Origin: Candidatus Zixiibacteriota bacterium
Lineage (GTDB): Bacteria; Zixibacteria; MSB-5A5; GN15; JAAZOE01
DNA: 64,000 nt
Direction of reading: 5' to 3'
Assembly: GCA_030668485.1 (NCBI GenBank)
Contig: DAOUTW010000010.1
Location: 1 to 64,000 of the forward strand
The notes beneath the pieces were generated by a model, which worked only from the letters and a program-made list of their open reading frames with translations, ran no database searches and was not told the origin of the DNA. Both the position numbers and the translations under genes were made by a program. Below are positions 15,422-27,328 of the stretch, piece by piece. Position 1 is the stretch's first letter, and each line of letters starts with the position of its first letter.

Positions 15422-16576
15422 TCAGCGAATACTTTCAAAAGCCTGTTTCAAATCGGCGATAAGATCACCGGGGTCCTCAATACCAACCGAAAGACGAACC
15501 AATCCGTCGGTGACGCCATGCTCTTCACGGATTTCTTTCGGGATGGATGAATGTGTCATCAAGGCCGGGTGATTGATCAGCGATTCCACACCGCCCAATG
15601 ATTCGGCCAGGACAAAAACTTCGGTAGCCATCACAAACTTCTTCACAGTATCAAGATCGGCTTTGATCGTAAATGAAATCATGCCGCCCGGAAGAGACAT
15701 CTCATTCTGCAGAGGCTTTCCATCAAATCCCGGAAAATAAATCTTCTCGACCAGATCGACCGTTTTGAGAAATTCAACCACCTTGAGGGCATTGGCCGAA
15801 TGGCGCTCCATGCGGATCGCCAGAGTCTTGATCCCACGCAAAACCAGCCAACTATCGAACGGTCCGGCGGTAGCTCCGACTGCGTATTGATTAAAACGCA
15901 GCTTTTCGGCCAGTTGATCATCGCGCGTCACAACCGCTCCGGCGACAACGTCGCAATGACCGCCAAGATATTTGGTTGCCGAATGATGGACAATATCGGC
16001 GCCCAGTTCCAGTGGACGCTGGATATATGGGGTGGCAAAAGTATTATCAACCGCGGTGATTATGCCATGCTTTTTGGCAATCGCGGAGGCCGCTTTGATA
16101 TTGATCAGTTTCAACAATGGATTTGTCGGCGTTTCAATCCAGAGCAGTTTCGTATTATCCTTGATAGCCTTTTCAAAATCATCCGGATCGGTACCCTCAA
16201 CATAACTGAAACTGATCTGAAAATTGCGCATCAAATTCTCAAAAAGACGATGGGTTCCACCATAGAGATCACTCACCGCAACCACATGATCGCCCGGTCG
16301 GAGAAGATGCAAAATAGCGGTCACCGCCGCCAGCCCCGATGAAAAGAAATAGGCGTGCTTGCCGTTTTCGAGTTCGGCCAGAGTATTTTCCAGCGCCTGA
16401 CGGGTCGGGTTGGACCAGCGAGAATAAACATAACCGGAGTCATCACCGGGAAAATCCATACGATAAGTGGAGCTGGGATAAATCGGGGTCGTAACCGAAC
16501 CGGTGCCGTCCTCCGGAACCCGGCCAAGATGGATCGCCTTGGTGGCGAATTTCTTATCTTTCATATTGTCGCTCAT
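15422..16576 (-). CDS. Cystathionine gamma-lyase / gamma-synthase family PLP enzyme
   Basis: 384 residues, full length for the Cys/Met-metabolism PLP family. The PLP lysine is in SATKYLGGH (Lys202). Other family marks are YSRWSNPTRQALE (about 50-62), SSGLAAVTA (79-87), DLYGGTHRLF (103-112), IETPTNPLL (about 147-155) and DNTFATPY (177-184). Family members catalyse beta/gamma elimination or replacement on cystathionine or homoserine esters. The gene lies 9 bases after a cystathionine beta-synthase-like gene, which favours the reverse transsulfuration role (cystathionine to cysteine, 2-oxobutyrate and ammonia) over methionine synthesis. Sequence alone does not settle lyase against synthase. Confidence 0.9.
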   Translation of the reverse strand: MSDNMKDKKFATKAIHLGRVPEDGTGSVTTPIYPSSTYRMDFPGDDSGYVYSRWSNPTRQALENTLAELENGKHAYFFSSGLAAVTAILHLLRPGDHVVAVSDLYGGTHRLFENLMRNFQISFSYVEGTDPDDFEKAIKDNTKLLWIETPTNPLLKLINIKAASAIAKKHGIITAVDNTFATPYIQRPLELGADIVHHSATKYLGGHCDVVAGAVVTRDDQLAEKLRFNQYAVGATAGPFDSWLVLRGIKTLAIRMERHSANALKVVEFLKTVDLVEKIYFPGFDGKPLQNEMSLPGGMISFTIKADLDTVKKFVMATEVFVLAESLGGVESLINHPALMTHSSIPKEIREEHGVTDGLVRLSVGIEDPGDLIADLKQAFESIR

Positions 16577-16585
16577 GGTTTCTCC

Positions 16586-17617
16586 TCAGTCGATGAATCC
16601 TTTTTCACGCATCCAATCGTCATTGAAAATCTTGCTGATATATTTCAAACCGCTGTCGGGTAAAATAACCACGACAGTTTGATCGACATCCAGTCCTGCG
16701 GCATATTTCAAGGCCACATGAACAGCGGTGCCCGATGACCCCCCGGCGAAGATTCCTTCTTTGCGTGTCAGGTCGCGCGTCGCCAGGAACGACTCCTTGT
16801 CGGTCACCTGGTAAATTTCGTCGATAACCGACATGTCGATACTGGGGCACATCATATCCTCGCCGATACCCTCCACATAATAAGTATGTGGTTCGATCAG
16901 CGTCTGGTCTTTGTGATATTGATAAAAAATAGACCCGACCGGATCGGCAGCGATGACTTTGATGTTGGGATTTTGTTCCTTGAGATAGCGGGCCGATCCC
17001 GAGATAGTACCGCCGGTGCCGATTCCACCGACGAGGACATCGATTTTACCCTCGGTTTGCTTCCATATTTCCGGGCCGGTCAGTTCATAATGAGCCTGGA
17101 TATTGTCGAGGCTGAAATACTGCCCGATATAGAAAGAACCGGGTGTCTCTTGATGAATTTTCTTGGCAACTTCATAATAACTCTCCGGCGATTCAGCCGG
17201 GACCGCCGTCGGGCAGACATGGACTTCGGCGCCAAAGGCTTTCATGGAATCGATTTTTTCCTGCGACATCTTATCGGGAATAGTCAAAATCGCCTTATAA
17301 TCATTGGCGGCGGCAAACATGGCGACCGCGGCGCCGGTATTGCCGGAGGTACCCTCGACGATAGTCGCGCCCGGTTTCAGTTCGCCCTTGGCGATTGCCT
17401 GGTTCAGGATAAAAACTGCCATACGATCTTTGACCGATCCGGTCGGGCTCATAAATTCCAGTTTGACCAGAATATTGGCTTTGATTTCGTTTTCCCCGGT
17501 CATTTTGCGCAATTTGACCAGGGGAGTATTTCCGACCGCCTCGGTGATGGTGTTACAATAGAATTTATCTTTCAATTTTCCTCTTTTCGGTTCGATTTCC
17601 TTACTGCTTTGTAACAT
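16586..17617 (-). CDS. Cystathionine beta-synthase-like PLP enzyme (cysteine synthase fold)
   Basis: 343 residues from the ATG at 17617. Catalytic Lys is in SPTGSVKDRM (Lys63); substrate loop EGTSGNTG (about 103-110), PLP-phosphate loop GGIGTGGTISG (about 195-205) and the late GGSSGTAVHVALKYA are all present. The block HTYYVEGIGEDMMCPSIDMS followed by VIDEIYQVTDKESF is closer to eukaryotic-type cystathionine beta-synthase than to CysK. There are no C-terminal CBS domains, so no S-adenosylmethionine control is expected. With the downstream gamma-lyase it makes a two-gene route from homocysteine plus serine to cysteine. Predicted promoter at 17672-17700. Confidence 0.9.
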   Translation of the reverse strand: MLQSSKEIEPKRGKLKDKFYCNTITEAVGNTPLVKLRKMTGENEIKANILVKLEFMSPTGSVKDRMAVFILNQAIAKGELKPGATIVEGTSGNTGAAVAMFAAANDYKAILTIPDKMSQEKIDSMKAFGAEVHVCPTAVPAESPESYYEVAKKIHQETPGSFYIGQYFSLDNIQAHYELTGPEIWKQTEGKIDVLVGGIGTGGTISGSARYLKEQNPNIKVIAADPVGSIFYQYHKDQTLIEPHTYYVEGIGEDMMCPSIDMSVIDEIYQVTDKESFLATRDLTRKEGIFAGGSSGTAVHVALKYAAGLDVDQTVVVILPDSGLKYISKIFNDDWMREKGFID

Positions 17618-17671
17618 CAATTTTCGGTTTCAGGTTCATAAAAATAGCCGTCAAATACGCATGGGAATGGG

Positions 17672-17900: not shown

Positions 17901-19388
17901 TTATTCCTCAAAGATTATCGCCTGGAATTTGTAGATTTCGGTGTCCTTCTCCTTGTAGGCGTTGGGGAATAAGTTGGCCTTACGGCAGGTGTTCTCCAGA
18001 AATGCGGTACGATCCCAGCCGTAATCGGTCGCCACCTGTGGCAACAACAATCCGCGATACCGCCCTTTGATAATCATCAACCCGTCGCGGCCAACTTCGA
18101 TCTCATCGAGCGAGGCGACTCTCTGGAGCGGCGTCAGGACCGAAATCTCGATATGAATCTCATCCAACTCGTTGGCCGTCACCGGTGGGAATCGCGGATC
18201 GGAAACAGCCGCCTGAATAGCGCAATAAGAAACGGTCTCATGCAGTGGTTTGATAGCCACTGTGTGGCCGATACAGCCGCGTAACTGCCCTTGTTTATTC
18301 AGAGTGACAAAGGCGGCTCCCATCTGCTTGAGATTGTCGGAAACTTCGAAGGTGGGAGTGGTGCCGTCGGCCAGATATGATTCAATCGTCTTGCGGGCGA
18401 TGACCAGCAGTTGAGCTTTATCATCATCGGTGACAAACATCTTCTCCGGAAGATCACTCTCTTCGACTTTTGGATTGACGGCCTGAGAGTCATCGGATTT
18501 GTATATGACCGCCGCGATATAACTGACAACCGAACTCTTATCGCCCGAAACATCACCGGAATCGCCGTACTTGAGGATTTTGACTTTATCGGCCCCCAAC
18601 GCTTTGGCTGCCTTTATGACAGATACTGTCGATGCTCCGCCGCAGGCCTGAGTTTTTTCCTCGGCCAGATATTTTTCCAGCCTGTTATCGTCGAGAGCCT
18701 TAATACATTCCAGCCCGGCCGAATCATACGGCCAACCTTCGGTGGCCGACATATAATGCTGCCAGTCGGTAGAGGCGACAATGATGGTTTGATCATCAAA
18801 ATCAACCGACGATAACGCCTTGGCCAGAGTATTGATAGTCTTCGTATCAGGACGGCCCATTATGGCCGGAACGATGGTGAAATCGTCAAGTACCGTTTGC
18901 AAATACGGGAGCTGGACCTCGAGGCAATGCTCCTGAGTATGAGCGTCAGAAACGACTCGAATCATTTTATCGTGATCGATCATCTGATTGCAAAGATCAT
19001 TATGGCATTTAACCGTACCGAGAGGGGTAAGCCAGTCGACACCGGGGCCGTAAATCGAAATCCCCTCGAAACGATAGCGATGCGACGGCCCGCACAGGAT
19101 AACTTTGTTGATGCCGGAATTCTCCAACAGCTTATAAGAATGAGCCGCAATCGCCCCGGAATAAACCAGCCCGGCATGGGGCACGATAAGGGCAATGATC
19201 TGCCCGTCGATTTCAGGGACATCGACTTGCTGGAGATGCTGTGTCACAGTCCGGGTTAATTCATCAGCATTGGCAGAGTAAAACGCTCCCGCCACAGCCG
19301 GTTGCCTGGTTTCGGCAAGCCCAGTATCAGCACTCATGGCAAATGCAAAGGAAAAAGCAAGGAATTGCAAAATGGCTATAATCTTCAT
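17901..19388 (-). CDS. amrB: Memo-AMMECR1 fusion (AmmeMemoRadiSam systems B and A) with signal peptide
   Basis: 495 residues. Start: the ATG at 19388 has a near-perfect AGAGGTGAT site, better than a GTG 9 bases upstream. Signal peptide about 1-26 (MKIIAILQFLAFSFAFAMSA). Residues about 28-290 are a Memo-like domain with its conserved blocks AVAGAFYSANADEL, VPHAGLVYSG, CGPSHRYRFEGI, HCLEVQLPYLQ, STDWQHY and ACGGAS, which supply the His and Cys of the metal-binding pocket. Residues about 310-495 are an AMMECR1 domain with RGCIGH and FPPVTANELDEIHIEISVL. The two domains are separate genes in many prokaryotes. Neighbouring, divergent genes encode DUF362 and the radical SAM partner. The signal peptide puts this protein outside the cytoplasm, which is unusual. 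The chemistry of the system is not established. Confidence 0.9.
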   Translation of the reverse strand: MKIIAILQFLAFSFAFAMSADTGLAETRQPAVAGAFYSANADELTRTVTQHLQQVDVPEIDGQIIALIVPHAGLVYSGAIAAHSYKLLENSGINKVILCGPSHRYRFEGISIYGPGVDWLTPLGTVKCHNDLCNQMIDHDKMIRVVSDAHTQEHCLEVQLPYLQTVLDDFTIVPAIMGRPDTKTINTLAKALSSVDFDDQTIIVASTDWQHYMSATEGWPYDSAGLECIKALDDNRLEKYLAEEKTQACGGASTVSVIKAAKALGADKVKILKYGDSGDVSGDKSSVVSYIAAVIYKSDDSQAVNPKVEESDLPEKMFVTDDDKAQLLVIARKTIESYLADGTTPTFEVSDNLKQMGAAFVTLNKQGQLRGCIGHTVAIKPLHETVSYCAIQAAVSDPRFPPVTANELDEIHIEISVLTPLQRVASLDEIEVGRDGLMIIKGRYRGLLLPQVATDYGWDRTAFLENTCRKANLFPNAYKEKDTEIYKFQAIIFEE

Positions 19389-19406
19389 AATTATCACCTC
19401 TTTCGC

Positions 19407-19435
19407 AGGATAAGTCTCCGGAAGCGGCCGGTCAA
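19407..19435 (-). promoter_or_regulatory. Predicted promoter TTGACC-17-TATCCT
   Basis: Minus strand, 19 bases before the Memo-AMMECR1 start. It shares a 95-base divergent control region with the DUF362-amrS operon. Confidence 0.5.
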
Positions 19436-19446
19436 GGCAAAAAGGA

Positions 19447-19477
19447 TTGGCAGATCGATATGGTTCCTTTGTATATT
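19447..19477 (+). promoter_or_regulatory. Predicted promoter TTGGCA-19-TATATT
   Basis: Spacing is long, but the TATATT box ends 6 bases before the ATG at 19484 and no Shine-Dalgarno site exists, so a leaderless message is likely. Confidence 0.4.
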
Positions 19478-19483
19478 ATATGT

Positions 19484-20407
19484 ATGAGCCGAGTGGTGGT
19501 GGTTAAATATTCGGGCAACGCCGACAACAAATTCCTCGATAAGAAACAGTATCGTCGGCTATTGGAAACGGCGCTGGGCAAGCTTGCCAGAGACGCCGAC
19601 TATAAGACGTATATCATGCAGCGTTTTCCCAAAGGGGCGGTCGGTATGAAAACCAATTGCCTGGCCGCTTTCAATCCGACGCTATCGCCGCTAATTGACG
19701 CCCTTTCGGAATTAATCACTAAAAACTCGAAAATCGACAACAATGACCTGATCGTATGGGAAAGGACCAATAAGGAACTCAAGCGGGCCGGGTATAAGCT
19801 GAACGCCTCGTCATTCGGACGGCGTTACCTCGGCACCGACTCATCCGGTGTCGGTTACGATGACAGCCAATTCTACAGCGCCGGCAAAGTCGACAGCATG
19901 GTCACCCGCATCCTCACCCGCATGGTCGATCACAATATCAACCTGGGCGTGCTCAAGCACCATTCCATCGCCGGGATGTCGGCCGGAATGAAAAATATGT
20001 ATGGCGCGGTTCACAACCCGAACAAATATCATGGCAACAACTGCAGCCCCTTCACAGCCGATATCAACAACCTCGAACCGATAAAAAGCAAACACCGTTT
20101 AACGGTTATCGATGCCGTCCGGGTGCAGTATGACAAAGGGCCCGGTTTCAACTCCAAATATATGGGATATTACAACGGCCTGGTTCTCTCGGAAAATCCG
20201 GTCGCTGCCGACAGTGTCGCCCTGATGATTCTGGATCATCTACGGCGGGAGAACGGTTTGCCGCAACTGGCAGCCACCTCACAAAAAGTTAAATACCTGG
20301 AAGCCGCCGAAAAAATCGGGCTGGGTACCGCTAATATTAAAAGTATCGATCTTCAGGTAGCAGTAGTTGCCTCCGATGGCACAACCTCTACAGGGGACCT
20401 GTTCTGA
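19484..20407 (+). CDS. DUF362-family protein
   Basis: 307 residues. I chose the ATG at 19484 (MSRVVVVKYSGN) over one 24 bases earlier because the TATATT box at 19472 would overlap the longer form. Family marks are GMKTNCLA (about 52-59), LKHHSIAGMSAGMKNMYGAV (about 150-170) and AVRVQYDKGPGF (about 215-225). DUF362 proteins occur near iron-sulfur and radical SAM genes; no reaction is proven to my knowledge. No signal peptide is seen, unlike the second DUF362 protein at 26338. The stop overlaps the amrS ATG by one base, so translation is probably coupled. It is the first gene of a three-gene operon. Confidence 0.88.
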   Translation: MSRVVVVKYSGNADNKFLDKKQYRRLLETALGKLARDADYKTYIMQRFPKGAVGMKTNCLAAFNPTLSPLIDALSELITKNSKIDNNDLIVWERTNKELKRAGYKLNASSFGRRYLGTDSSGVGYDDSQFYSAGKVDSMVTRILTRMVDHNINLGVLKHHSIAGMSAGMKNMYGAVHNPNKYHGNNCSPFTADINNLEPIKSKHRLTVIDAVRVQYDKGPGFNSKYMGYYNGLVLSENPVAADSVALMILDHLRRENGLPQLAATSQKVKYLEAAEKIGLGTANIKSIDLQVAVVASDGTTSTGDLF

Positions 20408-21546
20408 TGGATCGGCGCAAGTTTATAAAATGTCTTGGATGCACAGCCGCTGCCGCCGCGGCTTCACAAACCGATTTCCTCCCCAGGGCTCTGGGTGGGC
20501 TGCAGAATGCCTATGCCTTCAGCTATACCGAAAAATTGTCAAAAGTCGAGGCCCGTTTCTACAAGAAACTTGAAGAAGGCGGTATTGAATGCGGCTTATG
20601 CCCCCGTCATTGTCGGATAACCGATCTGGAGCGAGGCTATTGTGGCGTACGCGAAAACCGCGATGATGTTTACTATACCCTGGTTTATGGATTACCATGC
20701 GCCCTCAACATCGATCCGATCGAGAAAAAACCGCTCTTCCATTTTCATCCGGGAACAACCGCCTTTTCGCTGGCGACGGCCGGATGTAATGTCAATTGTA
20801 AATGCTGTCAAAACTGGGATATATCGCAATCGCGGCCGGAACAGACCAAAAACATAGATATGCCGCCCAAAGATGTTATCGATATCTGCCGGGAAAGAAA
20901 AATCCCGACTATCGCCTATACCTATTCCGAGCCGGTAATATTTTATGAATACATGTCCGATATTGCCGAGCTAGGACATAAACATGATATCAAGTCGGTC
21001 ATGATCACCGGTGGATATATCGAAAAGGAACCGCTGGCGGAATTGATCCCGCGACTCGATGCGATCAAGGTTGATCTTAAGGCGATACGCACCGATTATT
21101 ACCGCGATTATGTCGACGGTGAATTACAGCCGGTGCTCGATGGTCTGGTGCAGATGAAAAAAGCGGGGATTTGGCTGGAGCTGGTATACCTGGTAATTCC
21201 GACCCTGAATGATTCGGACGCGGAATTCAAAGAACTGGCGAGGTGGATAAAAACCAACCTCGGAAGCGATGTTCCGGTACATTTTTCACGTTTCCATCCG
21301 CAGTATCTGCTGAAGAATCTGCCGATGACGCCGGAGGCGACCCTGCAGCGGGCGCATGATATATCCAAAGCCGAGGGGCTTGATTTTGTTTACCTCGGGA
21401 ACCTGCCGGGACATCCGGCCGAGTCGACTTATTGTCCCGGATGCGGCGAGATTCTGATCGAACGGCGTGGCTATCGGGTTGCTCCTCGTAATCTCAAGGG
21501 GAATCGCTGCGGATCATGCGACCGCGAAATCCCCGGGCGATTTTAA
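20407..21546 (+). CDS. amrS: AmmeMemoRadiSam radical SAM enzyme with Tat-like signal
   Basis: 379 residues. The radical SAM motif is TAGCNVNCKCCQNW (Cys127, Cys131, Cys134; CxxxCxxC). Upstream is a Cys cluster ECGLCPRHCRI...GYCGVRE (62-81) and near the end a zinc-ribbon-like pair (YCPGCGEILIERRGY, RCGSCDREI), all typical of the family. AmrS belongs with PflA-like activases in sequence and co-occurs with Memo and AMMECR1 genes; its substrate is unknown. The N-terminus reads MDRRKFIKCLGCTAAAAAAS, which looks like a twin-arginine signal, but it has only DRRKF and an alanine-rich core. If real, this enzyme works outside the cytoplasm. It overlaps the DUF362 stop by one base and lies 3 bases before the next gene. 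Confidence 0.92.
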   Translation: MDRRKFIKCLGCTAAAAAASQTDFLPRALGGLQNAYAFSYTEKLSKVEARFYKKLEEGGIECGLCPRHCRITDLERGYCGVRENRDDVYYTLVYGLPCALNIDPIEKKPLFHFHPGTTAFSLATAGCNVNCKCCQNWDISQSRPEQTKNIDMPPKDVIDICRERKIPTIAYTYSEPVIFYEYMSDIAELGHKHDIKSVMITGGYIEKEPLAELIPRLDAIKVDLKAIRTDYYRDYVDGELQPVLDGLVQMKKAGIWLELVYLVIPTLNDSDAEFKELARWIKTNLGSDVPVHFSRFHPQYLLKNLPMTPEATLQRAHDISKAEGLDFVYLGNLPGHPAESTYCPGCGEILIERRGYRVAPRNLKGNRCGSCDREIPGRF

Positions 21547-21549
21547 ATC

Positions 21550-23718
21550 ATGAAGCGACAAGGATTTTTACTTGGCCTTTTCTCTGTCGGCGGACAGGTC
21601 CTTGTCCTCCGCGCACTGGTATCCTCGCTCAACGGCGATGAACTGTTTATCGGCACCGCCCTTTTCGGATGGCTAATTGCAGTTGCTCTTGGGGCTTATT
21701 GGGGTGGCAAATCACTGCGTCCTAAAAATCCGAATCTGCTGTTCGTCCTTGGTGCAATTTTACTGCCTGTGATGGTAGTCGCAGTGAAGCTTTCACCATT
21801 GATGGTAACTTCGGTGACCGGAGAGGTTGTCCCTTTTGTCAAAGCGGCAGTTATTTCCATACTTGCCATGATGCCAATCGGAATAATTTCCGGATGGTTA
21901 TTTCCCCTCATTACCAGAAAGATATTATTTCCAGCCTCGGATGCCGTTATCAAGGTTTATCTCTATGAAGGGATTGGAGCCTTTGCCGGCGGCCTGATTA
22001 TCTTCCTGCTGGTAATTGTAGATTTTCCAAACATCGTTGCAGGTGGAATTATATGTTCAGTTGTTGTTGGAAGTCTATTAGCGACCGGTAGTGTCTTCAG
22101 GCGGACCATGGTTATTATTGGATGCATAATTCTTGTCTTTGTGTGTTTTATTTATTTGTGGTCCGGCGATTACTACCTGGAATCCGCCAAAACTGAATCA
22201 TTTGAAATCAGCTACAGTATTTATACATCCTACGGACATTACCTGTTACTAAAGAGAGAAGGCAATCTGACGCTAATGACCGATAACATGTTGGAAGTCA
22301 CATATCCGGACCCGGAAACGGCGGAGAATCAATTCCTGGTTCCAATGATATATTCTCCTTCTTCCACATCGATTGTGTACATCGGGCAGGGGCATTTTAT
22401 GCTGGCCTCGTTAGCTAAGGGTAAAATTCCGGATACCGTAGCGACCGTTCATCCAAGACCGTTAATGGGACGGATATTATATCCCAAAATAATCGACATG
22501 GGGGGGTATTGGCCTATTATGGCGCCGAAGGTCACCGACCCGGTGGACTATTTTTCCTCAAACAGCGATTATGCCCTATATGATATAGTCATCCTCAATT
22601 CCGGTTTGCCGGACAGCTATACCCACAGCCGGTATTTCACATCCCGGTTTTTGCAGTCGGTGAAAAATAAAATGTCCGATTCCAGTGTGCTGTCGATTCC
22701 GCTGGCATACGATACCGATAGATACATAACGGCGGAGACACAGGATGTTCTCTCGATTATCTATGCGACCCTATCGGCTGAGTTTGCCAATGTATCTGTC
22801 TGGCCGGGAACAACAACCATCTTCCTGGCTTCGGATCGGGTTCCGCTTGATCTGACTACCGATGAAATTATTGGACGTCTTGACGAACACAACCTCGGCG
22901 GCGATTATATCTCCGATGCCTATTTGTATGATCGCCTCAGTGAGATGAAGGTAGAACGGCTGCATTCCGCAATCTCCGGATCAGCTCCGGTTAACACTAT
23001 CGATAAGCCGATACTTACGCATTACCAGGCTCTGTATCGGTCAACGGCACATCCGGTGGACCGGAGTGTTATTTCGTTCATTCTGGGATGGTCGTGGTGG
23101 CTGCTGATGGTTCCGATTGTCATTATTTTCTTATTCTGGAGATCGTACCGGGAGGGGGGGACCTCACCCGCATTCGGTTTATTTCTATATTTCACCGCCG
23201 GAGTGGTCTCATTGTCATTGGAATTGATATCGTTTTATCTCTATCAGACGATGGCCGGATCTCTCTACTCGGAAATGGCGCTGCTGATAGGAACCTTTAT
23301 GCTCGGTCTGGCGGTGGGTACATATTATGCGCATAAAACCGGCGATGGCCCGCTTCAATTTCCCGCCCTGATTATTTTGTTGATAGCCACCCTTATCTTT
23401 CTGACAACCTGGAATAAGATCGGAACCGACACTCTGCTTCTGTTTCATACACTGTTCCTATTTGTAGTCGCAGTGGCAACCGGAACATTGTTTGTGGGAG
23501 CCACCAATATTTATTACGGAGACAACAAGCAGACTAATCGAGGTCTCGGCTATGCTTGGGAACTGGCCGGTTCAGCATTGGGAGCGCTTCTAACTTTGAC
23601 TATACTATTGCCGGTAATCGGTCTGACCTGGTTGCTGATTTCACTGATGAGTTTAATCGTTCTGGCCTTGGCCGGCGCGATTATAACTCACAGGCCGATG
23701 AAAATATACCTGGGGTAA
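21550..23718 (+). CDS. Polytopic membrane protein with degenerate spermidine-synthase-like domain
   Basis: 722 residues: about seven membrane segments (1-215), a soluble domain (about 220-500) and about seven more (515-720, LGWSWWLLMVPIVIIFLFW to the end). The order matches the family of MFS-like membrane proteins fused to a spermidine-synthase fold. In the soluble domain the fold's YxxYLLLxREGNLTLMTDN strand pair is present, but the glycine-rich nucleotide loop is VYIGQGHF in place of the usual LxIGGGDG, and the acidic residues that bind the polyamine are not obvious. I infer a fold without that reaction. It is the third gene in the DUF362-amrS operon and could be a carrier or assembly factor for it. 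Confidence 0.75.
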   Translation: MKRQGFLLGLFSVGGQVLVLRALVSSLNGDELFIGTALFGWLIAVALGAYWGGKSLRPKNPNLLFVLGAILLPVMVVAVKLSPLMVTSVTGEVVPFVKAAVISILAMMPIGIISGWLFPLITRKILFPASDAVIKVYLYEGIGAFAGGLIIFLLVIVDFPNIVAGGIICSVVVGSLLATGSVFRRTMVIIGCIILVFVCFIYLWSGDYYLESAKTESFEISYSIYTSYGHYLLLKREGNLTLMTDNMLEVTYPDPETAENQFLVPMIYSPSSTSIVYIGQGHFMLASLAKGKIPDTVATVHPRPLMGRILYPKIIDMGGYWPIMAPKVTDPVDYFSSNSDYALYDIVILNSGLPDSYTHSRYFTSRFLQSVKNKMSDSSVLSIPLAYDTDRYITAETQDVLSIIYATLSAEFANVSVWPGTTTIFLASDRVPLDLTTDEIIGRLDEHNLGGDYISDAYLYDRLSEMKVERLHSAISGSAPVNTIDKPILTHYQALYRSTAHPVDRSVISFILGWSWWLLMVPIVIIFLFWRSYREGGTSPAFGLFLYFTAGVVSLSLELISFYLYQTMAGSLYSEMALLIGTFMLGLAVGTYYAHKTGDGPLQFPALIILLIATLIFLTTWNKIGTDTLLLFHTLFLFVVAVATGTLFVGATNIYYGDNKQTNRGLGYAWELAGSALGALLTLTILLPVIGLTWLLISLMSLIVLALAGAIITHRPMKIYLG

Positions 23719-23754: not shown

Positions 23755-24660
23755 TTAACCGACTTTTTCCGGTAATGAATTTATCCAGTCATTCATAAAT
23801 TGCTTGTGCCGCTCGTCATAGCCCATCATGGCAGTCATAATATCATTTTTTATTCCTATAATGACCCGGCCGTATCGTTGGTGCTCGATTATAAATCCCT
23901 TGTCCTCATCATAAGGGATATCTTCGGGAAGAGGACGGATAGTGCTGTCGGCCTCGGCAATCTTACTCCATTGTAGAAACATTGCCTCGGCACTGTCACA
24001 GGCAAGAAAAAGAAAAACAGTATCAGTATCAATCTTCTGATAACTGGAATAGACACATTTCATAAAATCGATACCCAAAAAGGCATTGGGGAAATACATG
24101 GCCGAAGACGGCACGGTCCCTTCCGAAGGGAACAGAGCAAAACGATCCGGCATGGTATTGTCACCTGGAATTTCATCGGCATAGTAGGCCGCCAGATCAT
24201 CCAGAGCCCTGGCCGGTTTTTCGGAATCGTCAAAACCCATGGTGTGAACGACGTAAGGTCCTTTTACAAAATAGACATTCGGCAATGACCGGAAACCTTC
24301 GACGCCGATCGGGAAAGTTTTGTCGGAATTACCCCAGCGGACGTGGCTATAATAACCATATGCGTCCTCCGGCGATGCGAAGCGGTAGATTTCAACCTCA
24401 AGAACAATATCATCCCCGGTGTAATCGGCGCTGGCCATATCGATGAAGTTGAAACGCTGGATGAATTGTGCTTCGTTGGTGTAATAGGTCAGCGAATCAC
24501 CTCTGAAGACCAATACTTCGGCAGAGCGGTCCAGTCCCAGTTCGGATATCGACTCCGGAATGAACTCTTCAGGGGTGACGCGAGTGTCTTTACCGGTGCA
24601 GGAGATCAGTATCAAAAACAACAGAACTGAACAGGTGAAAAAGGAGTTCGATTTATTCAT
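23755..24660 (-). CDS. DUF6599-like lipoprotein
   Basis: 301 residues from the ATG at 24660, which has GAGGCGG upstream; an ATG 27 bases earlier is possible. Lipobox LILISC gives Cys at about 20. The rest matches the DUF6599 pattern as I know it: a first half with VEIYRFASPEDAYGYYSHVR (about 90-110) and a second half with FPNAFLGIDFMKCVYSSYQK (about 200-215). Function unknown. It is the last gene of the minus-strand operon DUF362, polyferredoxin, lipoprotein and overlaps the reading of the polyferredoxin end only in its alternative start. Its placement suggests a membrane-tethered, non-cytoplasmic part of the redox system. Confidence 0.75.
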   Translation of the reverse strand: MNKSNSFFTCSVLLFLILISCTGKDTRVTPEEFIPESISELGLDRSAEVLVFRGDSLTYYTNEAQFIQRFNFIDMASADYTGDDIVLEVEIYRFASPEDAYGYYSHVRWGNSDKTFPIGVEGFRSLPNVYFVKGPYVVHTMGFDDSEKPARALDDLAAYYADEIPGDNTMPDRFALFPSEGTVPSSAMYFPNAFLGIDFMKCVYSSYQKIDTDTVFLFLACDSAEAMFLQWSKIAEADSTIRPLPEDIPYDEDKGFIIEHQRYGRVIIGIKNDIMTAMMGYDERHKQFMNDWINSLPEKVG

Positions 24661-24667
24661 GACCGCC

Positions 24668-26341
24668 TCAGGTTTTTTGTGCTCCATTTCTTTGTAGCAG
24701 AATCTGATTCTCCGGCGAACGAGATTCGCCTATCGAGGTAATATACACGGCTGGTTTGTCGATCACCGGGCAGGCAAATTCACACGCTCCGCAACCGGTA
24801 CATAATTCCGGCTCGATATAGGGACGCTTGACCAGACTTGACTGTCCATTGCGATCAACAACGTTCTCCTCTATGAAAAATACCGCCTTGGGTGACGTCG
24901 GACACCATTCCTCACAAACAATACAGGTTTTGCCCATTGCCCACGGCAGACAGCGGCCGCGATCAAAGAAGGCGGTGCCGATCCGGTTCGGCGGATTATC
25001 CTTATCGCCGACTTTTTGGAGAGTGGTCAATTCCAAAATCGCCCCGGTTGGGCAAACCTGTCCGCATAGAGTGCAGGTCGGCTCGCAATATCCGATGCGG
25101 GCGATTATAATCGGCGTCCAGATACCCTCCAGCCCCGATTCCAGAAGGGTCGGGTGCAGGGCATTATTGGGGCAGACCCGCATGCATTGACCGCAACGAA
25201 TACATTTGGCCAAAAACGCCGATTCATCGACAGCGCCCGGCGGACGGATAAGTCCCGGATTGGGATTGGCCTCATAGGCATCGCCGGAGCGTATCATCGG
25301 GACGAACACGGCACCGGCGGCCAGTGAAGCCAGAACTTTCCGGCGCGTGATATCGACTTTAGGCGTCCCCGCCGGATTGGCGGCAGTGTGTTCCTGGTCA
25401 GGGAAGAAGCAGAAACTGAGAGAATTTTCCGGGCAGGTGGCCTGGCAATTGAGACAAAGATGGCATTCCGCCTGCCGCCATTTCGATCCGACATCGGGAT
25501 TATCGGCCCCCTGACAATGAAGCAGGCATTCATTACAATGGGTGCAAGACGGCTCGTCTTTTTTCAATCCAAAGATAGCATAACGCGAAAAAATCCCCAG
25601 CATCGCCCCCAGCGGACAAACGGCGCGGCACCAGAAGCGGGTATAGATACGGTTCAGTACCAGGACAATTATAAAAAGCAGACCAATGGTCAGCATGGCA
25701 TGAAAATGGACTTGCCGGAAATTAAAAAAGAGGGGGGCGAGAAGGTCGTAAACATACTGCGCGGCGTCACCCAGTGGAGGGTAGCCGATAGACTTGACCC
25801 AGCCGACAACGCCCAGCGCCCCGGTTTGGACAGTCGGCAGGACAACCGTACCGATCGAACGGGCCAAAAAGGGAAGCGGATCAAGCAGGCCGGCCTGCAG
25901 CGATCCCATCAGGGCGGCGGCGATGAAGAATAGGAAAACGAAATATTTTATCCGCTGATATTTTTTGTAGCGGTTGGAGTCGATCTTGCCTTTCCCTTTG
26001 CGGCGCAGGCGTTCGGAAGGGATTTCCGAAATCCAATGATTAAGCGAACCGAGAGGGCAGATCCAACCGCAAAAAAAACGTCCCAGAAAAATCGTCGGAA
26101 TCAAAATCACCAGCGACCAGAGGAGACCTTTATAAATTGTCCCACCGGAAAGCAGGGTGGTTAGCGCCGTTAGAGGGTCGAATTCGAGGAAAAGCGAGAC
26201 CGGATAGGGAAGCCTGATATCGCCTCCGGAAGTGGCCTCGAAGCTGACGCCGAAATTGGTTTTCAAAATGAGCCAGAAAAAGATCAGAAAGAATAGTACT
26301 TGAGATATCCGGCGAAGGTTTCTGGCCGATCGTGCTGTCAT
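24668..26341 (-). CDS. Fused NapH/NapG-like membrane polyferredoxin
   Basis: 557 residues. The N-terminal half (1-290) is NapH-like: membrane segments around 15-35, 65-95, 135-160, 175-195, 210-235 and the two cytoplasmic CxxxCP motifs FFCGWICPLGSLNHW and FWCRAVCPLGAMLGI. It goes on to Cys motifs CTHCNECLLHC and CHLCLNCQATCP. A second part begins with TRRKVLASLAAGAVFVPM, a twin-arginine-like segment inside the chain, and then has CIRCGQCMRVCP, CTLCGQVCP, CIVCEEWCP and CTGCGACEFACP, as in NapG. It should pass electrons from the quinone pool to outside acceptors or the reverse. The start overlaps the DUF362 stop by 4 bases (ATGA). It could supply electrons to the Memo/AmrS set. No nitrate reductase is nearby. 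Confidence 0.9.
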   Translation of the reverse strand: MTARSARNLRRISQVLFFLIFFWLILKTNFGVSFEATSGGDIRLPYPVSLFLEFDPLTALTTLLSGGTIYKGLLWSLVILIPTIFLGRFFCGWICPLGSLNHWISEIPSERLRRKGKGKIDSNRYKKYQRIKYFVFLFFIAAALMGSLQAGLLDPLPFLARSIGTVVLPTVQTGALGVVGWVKSIGYPPLGDAAQYVYDLLAPLFFNFRQVHFHAMLTIGLLFIIVLVLNRIYTRFWCRAVCPLGAMLGIFSRYAIFGLKKDEPSCTHCNECLLHCQGADNPDVGSKWRQAECHLCLNCQATCPENSLSFCFFPDQEHTAANPAGTPKVDITRRKVLASLAAGAVFVPMIRSGDAYEANPNPGLIRPPGAVDESAFLAKCIRCGQCMRVCPNNALHPTLLESGLEGIWTPIIIARIGYCEPTCTLCGQVCPTGAILELTTLQKVGDKDNPPNRIGTAFFDRGRCLPWAMGKTCIVCEEWCPTSPKAVFFIEENVVDRNGQSSLVKRPYIEPELCTGCGACEFACPVIDKPAVYITSIGESRSPENQILLQRNGAQKT

Positions 26342-27294
26342 GATATGATCTCTTTGTATCCGGCAGCTTTATAATCGATTTCGCCCAGCCCGCTTTTGTG
26401 GGCCAACGCGATATGGCCGACCTGAGCCGCTTCCATTGCGAGGAATTCGGCAGCACGGGCATCGGCCGCTACCTGATCGGTGGCGCACATGACGGTATTC
26501 TCAATTGTAACGTCGTCAAGCGATCCTCCGGTGGGCCCACCGCGATGCATCACCCGCGTAGCGTCGACAACGGTCAGGGTCGGACGGCAGAAATTGGCCA
26601 GATCGACAATCGACTGGTCGATCTGCTGATGGAGCTGGTTGCGCCGGCCGCCGAGAATACCATACAGATTTTTCATTCCGATGGTGCAGCGTGACAGGGA
26701 ATGATGCTTGACAATCGGCATATTGATCAGCCGGTCGGTTTCTACAAAATGCTTCAAAACCGGCCAGACGGTCAGCATTTCACCGCCGAGGTCGATTTTA
26801 ACATAATCCTCATCACGCGGCAGAATAACCCTGGCGCCGGCCGCTTCTGCGGCCTCCTGAATTCCGGAACGAAGGAAGCATCGCGGCGCATAATTGCAGG
26901 TAACGTCGGTAACAATCACCTCGGCCGCACCCGCTTCCAGGCATAAGCGCACCATTTCACCCACCAGGATCGGATTGGTATTGGCGCCCTGTTCAGGAGT
27001 ACGATCCCAGCCGACATTCGGCTTGATGGTGATTTTTTCTCCCTTTTTGACGAAGCGCGTGATCCCCCCGATTGCATCCAGAGTGGCATTGAGGGCCTTA
27101 ATATGATCCTCACTTGCAGACAGAGTCAACTGCGGTAAACCGGGATTAACCGGAACGATGAACGAGGCGGTTTTGGAACTGAGTTGCTGATAGGCGACTG
27201 ATTCCCGGTTGTGAAACAGGAGGCCGGTCCCTCCGGTGACGACCGCCAAACCCAGGGCCTGACCGGTTTTCTTGATAAACTCGCGGCGCTTCAT
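26338..27294 (-). CDS. Exported DUF362-family protein with Tat signal
   Basis: 318 residues from the ATG at 27294; GGGGGTG stands upstream and the start begins at MKRREFIKKTGQALGLAVVT, a convincing twin-arginine signal, so the chain is likely folded with a cofactor before export. The body has the family marks KPNVGWDRTPEQGANTNP (about 85-102), VTDVTCNYAPRCFL, PVLKHHSLSRCTIGMKNLYG (about 190-205) and a late VDATRVMHRGGPTGG. First gene of the operon with the polyferredoxin and DUF6599-like lipoprotein. It is a paralogue of the untagged DUF362 protein at 19484, and a decayed third copy lies at 29880-29946. Predicted promoter at 27329-27357. Confidence 0.9.
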   Translation of the reverse strand: MKRREFIKKTGQALGLAVVTGGTGLLFHNRESVAYQQLSSKTASFIVPVNPGLPQLTLSASEDHIKALNATLDAIGGITRFVKKGEKITIKPNVGWDRTPEQGANTNPILVGEMVRLCLEAGAAEVIVTDVTCNYAPRCFLRSGIQEAAEAAGARVILPRDEDYVKIDLGGEMLTVWPVLKHFVETDRLINMPIVKHHSLSRCTIGMKNLYGILGGRRNQLHQQIDQSIVDLANFCRPTLTVVDATRVMHRGGPTGGSLDDVTIENTVMCATDQVAADARAAEFLAMEAAQVGHIALAHKSGLGEIDYKAAGYKEIIS

Positions 27295-27328
27295 GGCACC
27301 CCCGTTTGGATGTCGATGAATTTTGAGC

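Follow-up and report, generated by a model that had tools for sequence, protein, structure and literature searches.

The AmrS protein encoded by the ORF at 20407-21546 (+) of the window, the whole 64,000-nucleotide stretch of DNA analysed here, carries what appears to be a genuine Tat signal. This signal likely marks a deep clade of AmrS proteins that reside beyond the cytoplasmic membrane, next to Memo-AMMECR1 proteins that are exported as well. The Tat-exported radical SAM enzyme proposed in the earlier note is thus supported by the conservation of the signal, the contrast with a signal-less paralogue, the tree of AmrS cores, the partners, and the c-type haem context in Chloroflexi. Radical SAM enzymes are regarded as cytoplasmic, since that is where SAM and the low-potential reductant are found. 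The puzzle of export belongs to the whole predicted clade, not to one odd gene.

The N-terminus of the window AmrS reads MDRRKFIKCLGCTAAAAAASQTDFLPRALGGLQNAYA followed by FSYTEKLSKVEARFY (also given as MDRRKFIKCLGCTAAAAAASQTDFLPRALGGLQNAYA followed by FSYTEKLSKVEARFYKKL). As read from the sequence, it consists of MDRRKF with its twin arginine, a hydrophobic stretch, and an AYA site at residue 37, which together make a complete Tat signal peptide of residues 1-37 (20407-20517, +) with a predicted cut behind AYA. The signal is probably cleavable. The Tat-like segment reported earlier at 20407-20500 is therefore real, and the signal itself is slightly longer. The AmrS family model TIGR04337 matched the protein at 366.7 bits against a curated cut-off of 220, which places it in the family. 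The match begins at residue 49, so that 48 residues stand ahead of the normal start of the family, as had been claimed. The radical SAM core (20551-21546, +), as defined by TIGR04337, PF04055, the structure model and the fold match, extends from this residue. The ATG start at 20407 is sound, because it overlaps the stop codon of the upstream DUF362 gene (TGATG, 20405-20409), is preceded by a ribosome-binding-like AGGGGA (20392-20397), and has only one in-frame competitor ahead of residue 60, a TTG at codon 44. A late start at this codon was rejected, since the leucine there is encoded by TTG in just 4 of the 27 Zixibacterial orthologues.

In an alignment of 27 Zixibacterial AmrS sequences, including the window copy, R3, R4, G11, P26, G31, and A37 are invariant, and F6 is conserved in 26. 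Both arginines of the DRRKF segment to which the earlier note had drawn attention are thus among the invariant residues. The 27 genes use five kinds of codon at R3 and six kinds at R4, indicating that the protein sequence of the signal, and not the DNA, is conserved. The conservation of the N-terminus exceeds chance. The nearest named relatives of the locus are Ca. Zixiibacteriota bins. Two cysteines of the segment, C9 and C12, are found in 22 and 24 of the 27 sequences, respectively.

The core retains the residues expected of a radical SAM enzyme. CxxxCxxC occupies residues 127-134 (20785-20808), C127, C131, and C134 are invariant, and PF04055 matched the protein at 58.8 bits. The motif and the fold together identify a member of the radical SAM superfamily, for which SAM cleavage is predicted. 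The three radical-SAM cysteines, the N- and C-terminal cysteine sets, and E181, K225, E258, N268, D269, H292, and N332 are all at least 95% the same in signal-bearing and signal-less AmrS. The structure model of the window AmrS has a pLDDT of 93.4, and its best solved fold match by Foldseek was the AdoMet-bound pyruvate formate-lyase activating enzyme (3cb8/3c8f, E 3e-14; TM 0.81-0.82 on the target). The two proteins share 15-16% identity, and AmrS differs in its additional N- and C-terminal cysteine sets and signal. The window AmrS was not recognized as a glycyl radical activase, as its score against TIGR02493 (PFLA) was 49 bits, below the cut-off of 231.75.

The source genome, which encodes TatC, contains a second AmrS on contig C59 that begins with MIREALYYTRL and lacks the N-terminal extension, and a second Memo-AMMECR1 on C105 whose probable start (MGFSKERFEV) allows no space for a signal. 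TIGR04337 matches were found in 53 of 60 related genomes, over the cut-off in 49, and AmrS frames of a long class (about 380-420 residues) and a short class (about 335) were both common. Among 80 named loci, drawn from over a dozen phyla, 66 AmrS proteins were classed as Tat, 9 as Sec/TM, 4 as without signal, and 1 as truncated, by a simple rule rather than a trained predictor and on sequences that come nearly all from metagenome bins. Because the ranking of these loci was based on their similarity to an alignment containing the signal, the exported share among them is not a frequency. One of the nine rule-called Sec/TM proteins (L113) has KR where others have RR. A Sec-like signal in place of the Tat signal was seen at L090, L102-L105, L110, L112, and L116. 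Of the four proteins classed as without signal, that of L076 is part of a triple fusion headed by a Sec-like signal. For the others, the N-terminus is ambiguous at L089, no signal was seen at L082, and the AmrS of L101 has no signal in its own frame. At L101 (8146-10963), a NapGH-like ferredoxin and a membrane segment, encoded upstream in another frame, appear to run into AmrS; this join is possibly an electron-donor fusion.

In view of how the 80 loci had been chosen, a second set was assembled from the other over-cut-off AmrS copies in 45 genomes of the 80-locus set. A signal-bearing AmrS is present in 44 of these genomes, and both kinds are present in 40. The exported AmrS is most likely part of an extracytoplasmic AmmeMemoRadiSam module, distinct from the AmrS that most of these genomes also keep in the cytoplasm. 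In one Poribacteria bin, two Tat-AmrS genes lie in tandem (L157, 3432-5988), and the genome (G076) has four exported copies.

In an unrooted tree built from 135 AmrS cores of many phyla, with the signals removed and with support from a quick search, the distribution of 85 signal-bearing and 48 signal-less rows requires only three state changes, against a mean near 40 after shuffling. When L082 and L101 are left out, one change suffices. For this tree, L076 was labelled by hand as Sec/TM, by the signal that heads its triple fusion, and L070 and L089 were unlabelled; the Zixibacterial L012-L041 except L015 and L020, as well as L168, L194, L195, L203, and L204, were left off. Homologues that start near residue 40, which the earlier note had named as a sign of a later start, do exist, but they are confined to the separate signal-less group. 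Among the signal-bearing rows, Tat and Sec-like signals (76 and 9, with the KR-bearing L113 set by hand to Tat) are separated by four changes. Such switches with the signal retained fit what would be expected if the outside location is what is conserved. This location, which we infer, is well supported for the clade by the sequences.

The partners of AmrS are consistent with the same location. The window encodes a Memo-AMMECR1 fusion (17901-19388, -; TIGR04336 255 bits, TIGR04335 182 bits) with a Sec-type signal, read from the sequence as MKIIAILQFLAFSFAFAMSADTGLA, so that Memo, AMMECR1, and AmrS are encoded together at 17901-21546, as in AmmeMemoRadiSam. Memo was within reach in 44 of the 80 loci, many of which are ended by contig edges, and the simple rule called a signal on the Memo next to AmrS in 42 of the 44. 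For the two others, a signal is visible by eye at L094 and the match at L110 is partial. In the 45-genome set, Memo carries a signal in all 19 cases where an exported AmrS lies no more than 6 kb away and in 23 of 58 cases elsewhere; the Fisher value on this table ignores kinship. The table uses 77 of 87 Memo matches, with 10 weak or partial ones (including G097:C112) left out. By hand, L277 was set to no signal against the rule, as the stretch concerned is part of a different N-terminal domain, L281 was set to no signal, and L215 was set to signal though weak. L008 was excluded from the counts, since its rule-called signal came from upstream non-coding sequence. No signal-bearing Memo is found among the classed copies in 4 of the 44 Memo-bearing genomes, and most standalone Memo proteins (about 275-300 residues) have no signal. 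In a Planctomycetota bin, a Sec-like signal, Memo, AMMECR1, and AmrS form one chain (L076, 4565-6868), and the three parts must therefore share one compartment. A third type of Memo, observed at L269, L274, L275, L277, L278, and L280, has about 418-431 residues and differs in its N-terminal domain.

For the Chloroflexi, a further sign of the outside location was obtained. Among 168 classed AmrS N-termini, CxxCH occurs in that of L117 alone, and a match to this protein was found in 66 of 80 genomes of one Chloroflexi class. Sixteen Chloroflexi Tat-AmrS proteins (L282-L295, L298, and L302) have CxxCH and then [YF]CHxxH in an insert ahead of the first cysteine set, and the C, C, H, C, H, and H of the insert are invariant in all 16. 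CxxCH thus stands behind an export signal, as in c-type cytochromes, in 16 of 16, and a bound haem is predicted. In 11 of the 16 genomes, the gene immediately upstream of AmrS, on the same strand, encodes a ResC-type cytochrome c assembly protein (PF01578), and in 8 it is preceded by ResB (PF05140); these family assignments were confirmed on selected proteins. Of the remaining five genomes, G122, G149, and G181 have their ResB/PF01578 matches elsewhere, G152 has them on another contig, and in G180 AmrS lies at the edge of its contig. L296 and L297, which are closely related but lack the insert, carry a lipobox at the end of their Tat signal, and neither a ResB nor a PF01578 match adjoins them. 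The genome of L296 (G128) has no ResB or PF01578 match at all, and that of L297 (G163) has them elsewhere.

These results suggest that the Chloroflexi AmrS carries a covalently bound haem. The third cysteine and the further histidines of the insert could also suit zinc. In the structure model of the Chloroflexi enzyme, the block means of pLDDT in the CxxCH region are 40-42, and because the model is uninformative there, the argument for haem over zinc is the ResB/ResC context. The attachment of haem c takes place solely outside the membrane, and therefore CxxCH together with ResB/ResC is an independent sign that this AmrS is outside.

The other genes of the window cluster include candidates for supplying the enzyme. 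The AmrS gene is translationally coupled to a gene for a DUF362 protein with no visible signal (19460-20407, +; PF04015, 60.8 bits). It is followed by a membrane protein with a spermidine-synthase-like domain (21550-23718, +), assigned by homologue alignment, as the window copy gave no Pfam match. On the opposite strand are a DUF6599 protein with an N-terminus that is lipoprotein-like by eye (23755-24687, -; PF20244, 97.7 bits), a NapH-NapG-like fusion, which is a ferredoxin-type membrane protein with an internal ITRRKVL (24668-26341, -; TIGR02163 at 79.9 bits and the NapG model at 105.9 bits, both below their cut-offs), and a second DUF362 protein with a Tat-like signal, MKRREFIKKTG, as read from the sequence (26338-27300, -; PF04015, 162.3 bits). 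In the 80 loci, DUF362 was found at 51, the spermidine-synthase-like membrane protein at 39, NapGH at 15, and DUF6599 at 6. Clustering of the neighbours gave no widely recurrent family besides AmrS, Memo-AMMECR1, DUF362, the spermidine-synthase-like protein, and NapGH.

For DUF362, the protein next to the exported AmrS has no visible signal in the window and at L038-L043, L050, L051, L059, L062, L077, L079, and L093, and the Acidobacteria counterpart has a Tat signal; some DUF362 Tat signals that the simple rule missed, such as those at L044 and L083, can be recognized by eye. The signal-less DUF362 may either hitchhike through Tat or be a partner that stays in the cytoplasm. For the spermidine-synthase-like membrane protein, the GGG motif present in most homologues is lost in the window copy. 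In copies with seven helices before the domain, the K/R count indicates that the domain is outside, and copies with five or six helices gave mixed counts. Extracytoplasmic SAM handling by this protein is a lead, no more.

From these observations, a mechanism can be proposed. AmrS would fold and receive its Fe-S clusters in the cytoplasm, be moved in the folded state through Tat, and then be cut behind AYA. It would act in the periplasm alongside the Sec-exported Memo-AMMECR1, with electrons delivered by the NapGH-type membrane protein that the cluster encodes or, alternatively in the Chloroflexi, via a c-type haem put on AmrS by the neighbouring ResB/ResC. Haem attachment, the electron route, cleavage, and catalysis outside are steps that we infer. 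We only tentatively extend this to the whole clade, in which SAM-radical chemistry may be performed outside with a dedicated membrane electron line and extracytoplasmic SAM, and, in the Chloroflexi, with an enzyme that is also a c-type cytochrome. The Sec-like AmrS members are the least explained part, and they are odd for an Fe-S enzyme because the clusters would have to be acquired outside. Also counting against an outside location are the lack of a signal at L082 and, in its own frame, at L101, the signal-less DUF362 beside AmrS, and the four Memo-bearing genomes in which no classed Memo has a signal.

The Sec-like members also bear on a different order of events, in which the chemistry comes first: AmrS would turn over, or be loaded with a product or partner, in the cytoplasm, and Tat would export the finished or spent protein. 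Tat transports folded, cofactor-loaded proteins, as this order would require, and the signal-less Zixibacterial DUF362 beside AmrS could be a co-exported partner. However, some AmrS have Sec-like signals, one by way of the Sec-like triple fusion, and because Sec passes unfolded chains, no cytoplasmic turnover is expected for these. The Memo-AMMECR1 partner is exported too, and we regard this order of events as rather unlikely. Considerably less probable is that the signal serves as an uncut anchor or a quality-control tag on an enzyme that is active on the cytoplasmic side of the membrane. The signal region is modelled as a helix, which would suit an anchor, and the export location itself is predicted, but the AxA site is conserved with an invariant A37, Sec-like signals replace the Tat signal, the partners are exported, and the Chloroflexi CxxCH adjoins ResB/ResC. 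The cysteine-based metal-binding or lipoprotein-like site that the earlier note had suggested for the N-terminal segment is hardly credible and was rejected, since, although C9 and C12 are frequent in Zixibacteria, they are not invariant, they lie (as CLGC, which does not form a lipobox) ahead of the main hydrophobic stretch, and counterparts are missing from the AmrS Tat signals of most other phyla.

An extracytoplasmic AmrS, the reading preferred here, resembles known systems in part. All three AmmeMemoRadiSam domains (TIGR04337, TIGR04336, and TIGR04335) are over the NCBIfam cut-offs in neighbouring window genes, and the window system differs in that the three domains stand behind export signals and in its recurrent DUF362, spermidine-synthase-like membrane protein, and NapGH neighbours. 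The Chloroflexi AmrS alone resembles the system II (ResB/ResC) c-type cytochromes, with CxxCH behind a Tat signal and ResB/ResC directly upstream; it differs in that the protein carrying the motif, within an insert, is a radical SAM enzyme. NapG-type ferredoxins are Fe-S Tat substrates and, like AmrS, are folded Fe-S proteins with a twin-arginine signal. We know of no radical SAM example among Fe-S Tat substrates, and none was found in the literature searched. Memo-AMMECR1-radical SAM contexts are most likely to be discussed in the 2019 paper by Burroughs (doi 10.1074/jbc.RA119.007595). In the portions covered of the open-licence literature, including PMC11770544, PMC7955657, PMC2964644, PMC10924467, PMC11208441, PMC6411480, and PMC7694686, no report of an exported AmrS was recognized; an earlier mention is possible, for example in Burroughs 2019, which is cited in PMC7159879.

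If the exported clade is real, there must be either an outside supply of SAM or a way to export radical enzymes that are already charged. Memo and AMMECR1, which are uncharacterised and have human relatives, would gain a second compartment in which to search for their function. The Chloroflexi AmrS would be a sharp test object, as a radical SAM enzyme that is predicted to bind haem covalently and has genes of its own for attaching it. In the window, two genes that are transsulfuration-enzyme-like by eye (15422-17620) adjoin the cluster.
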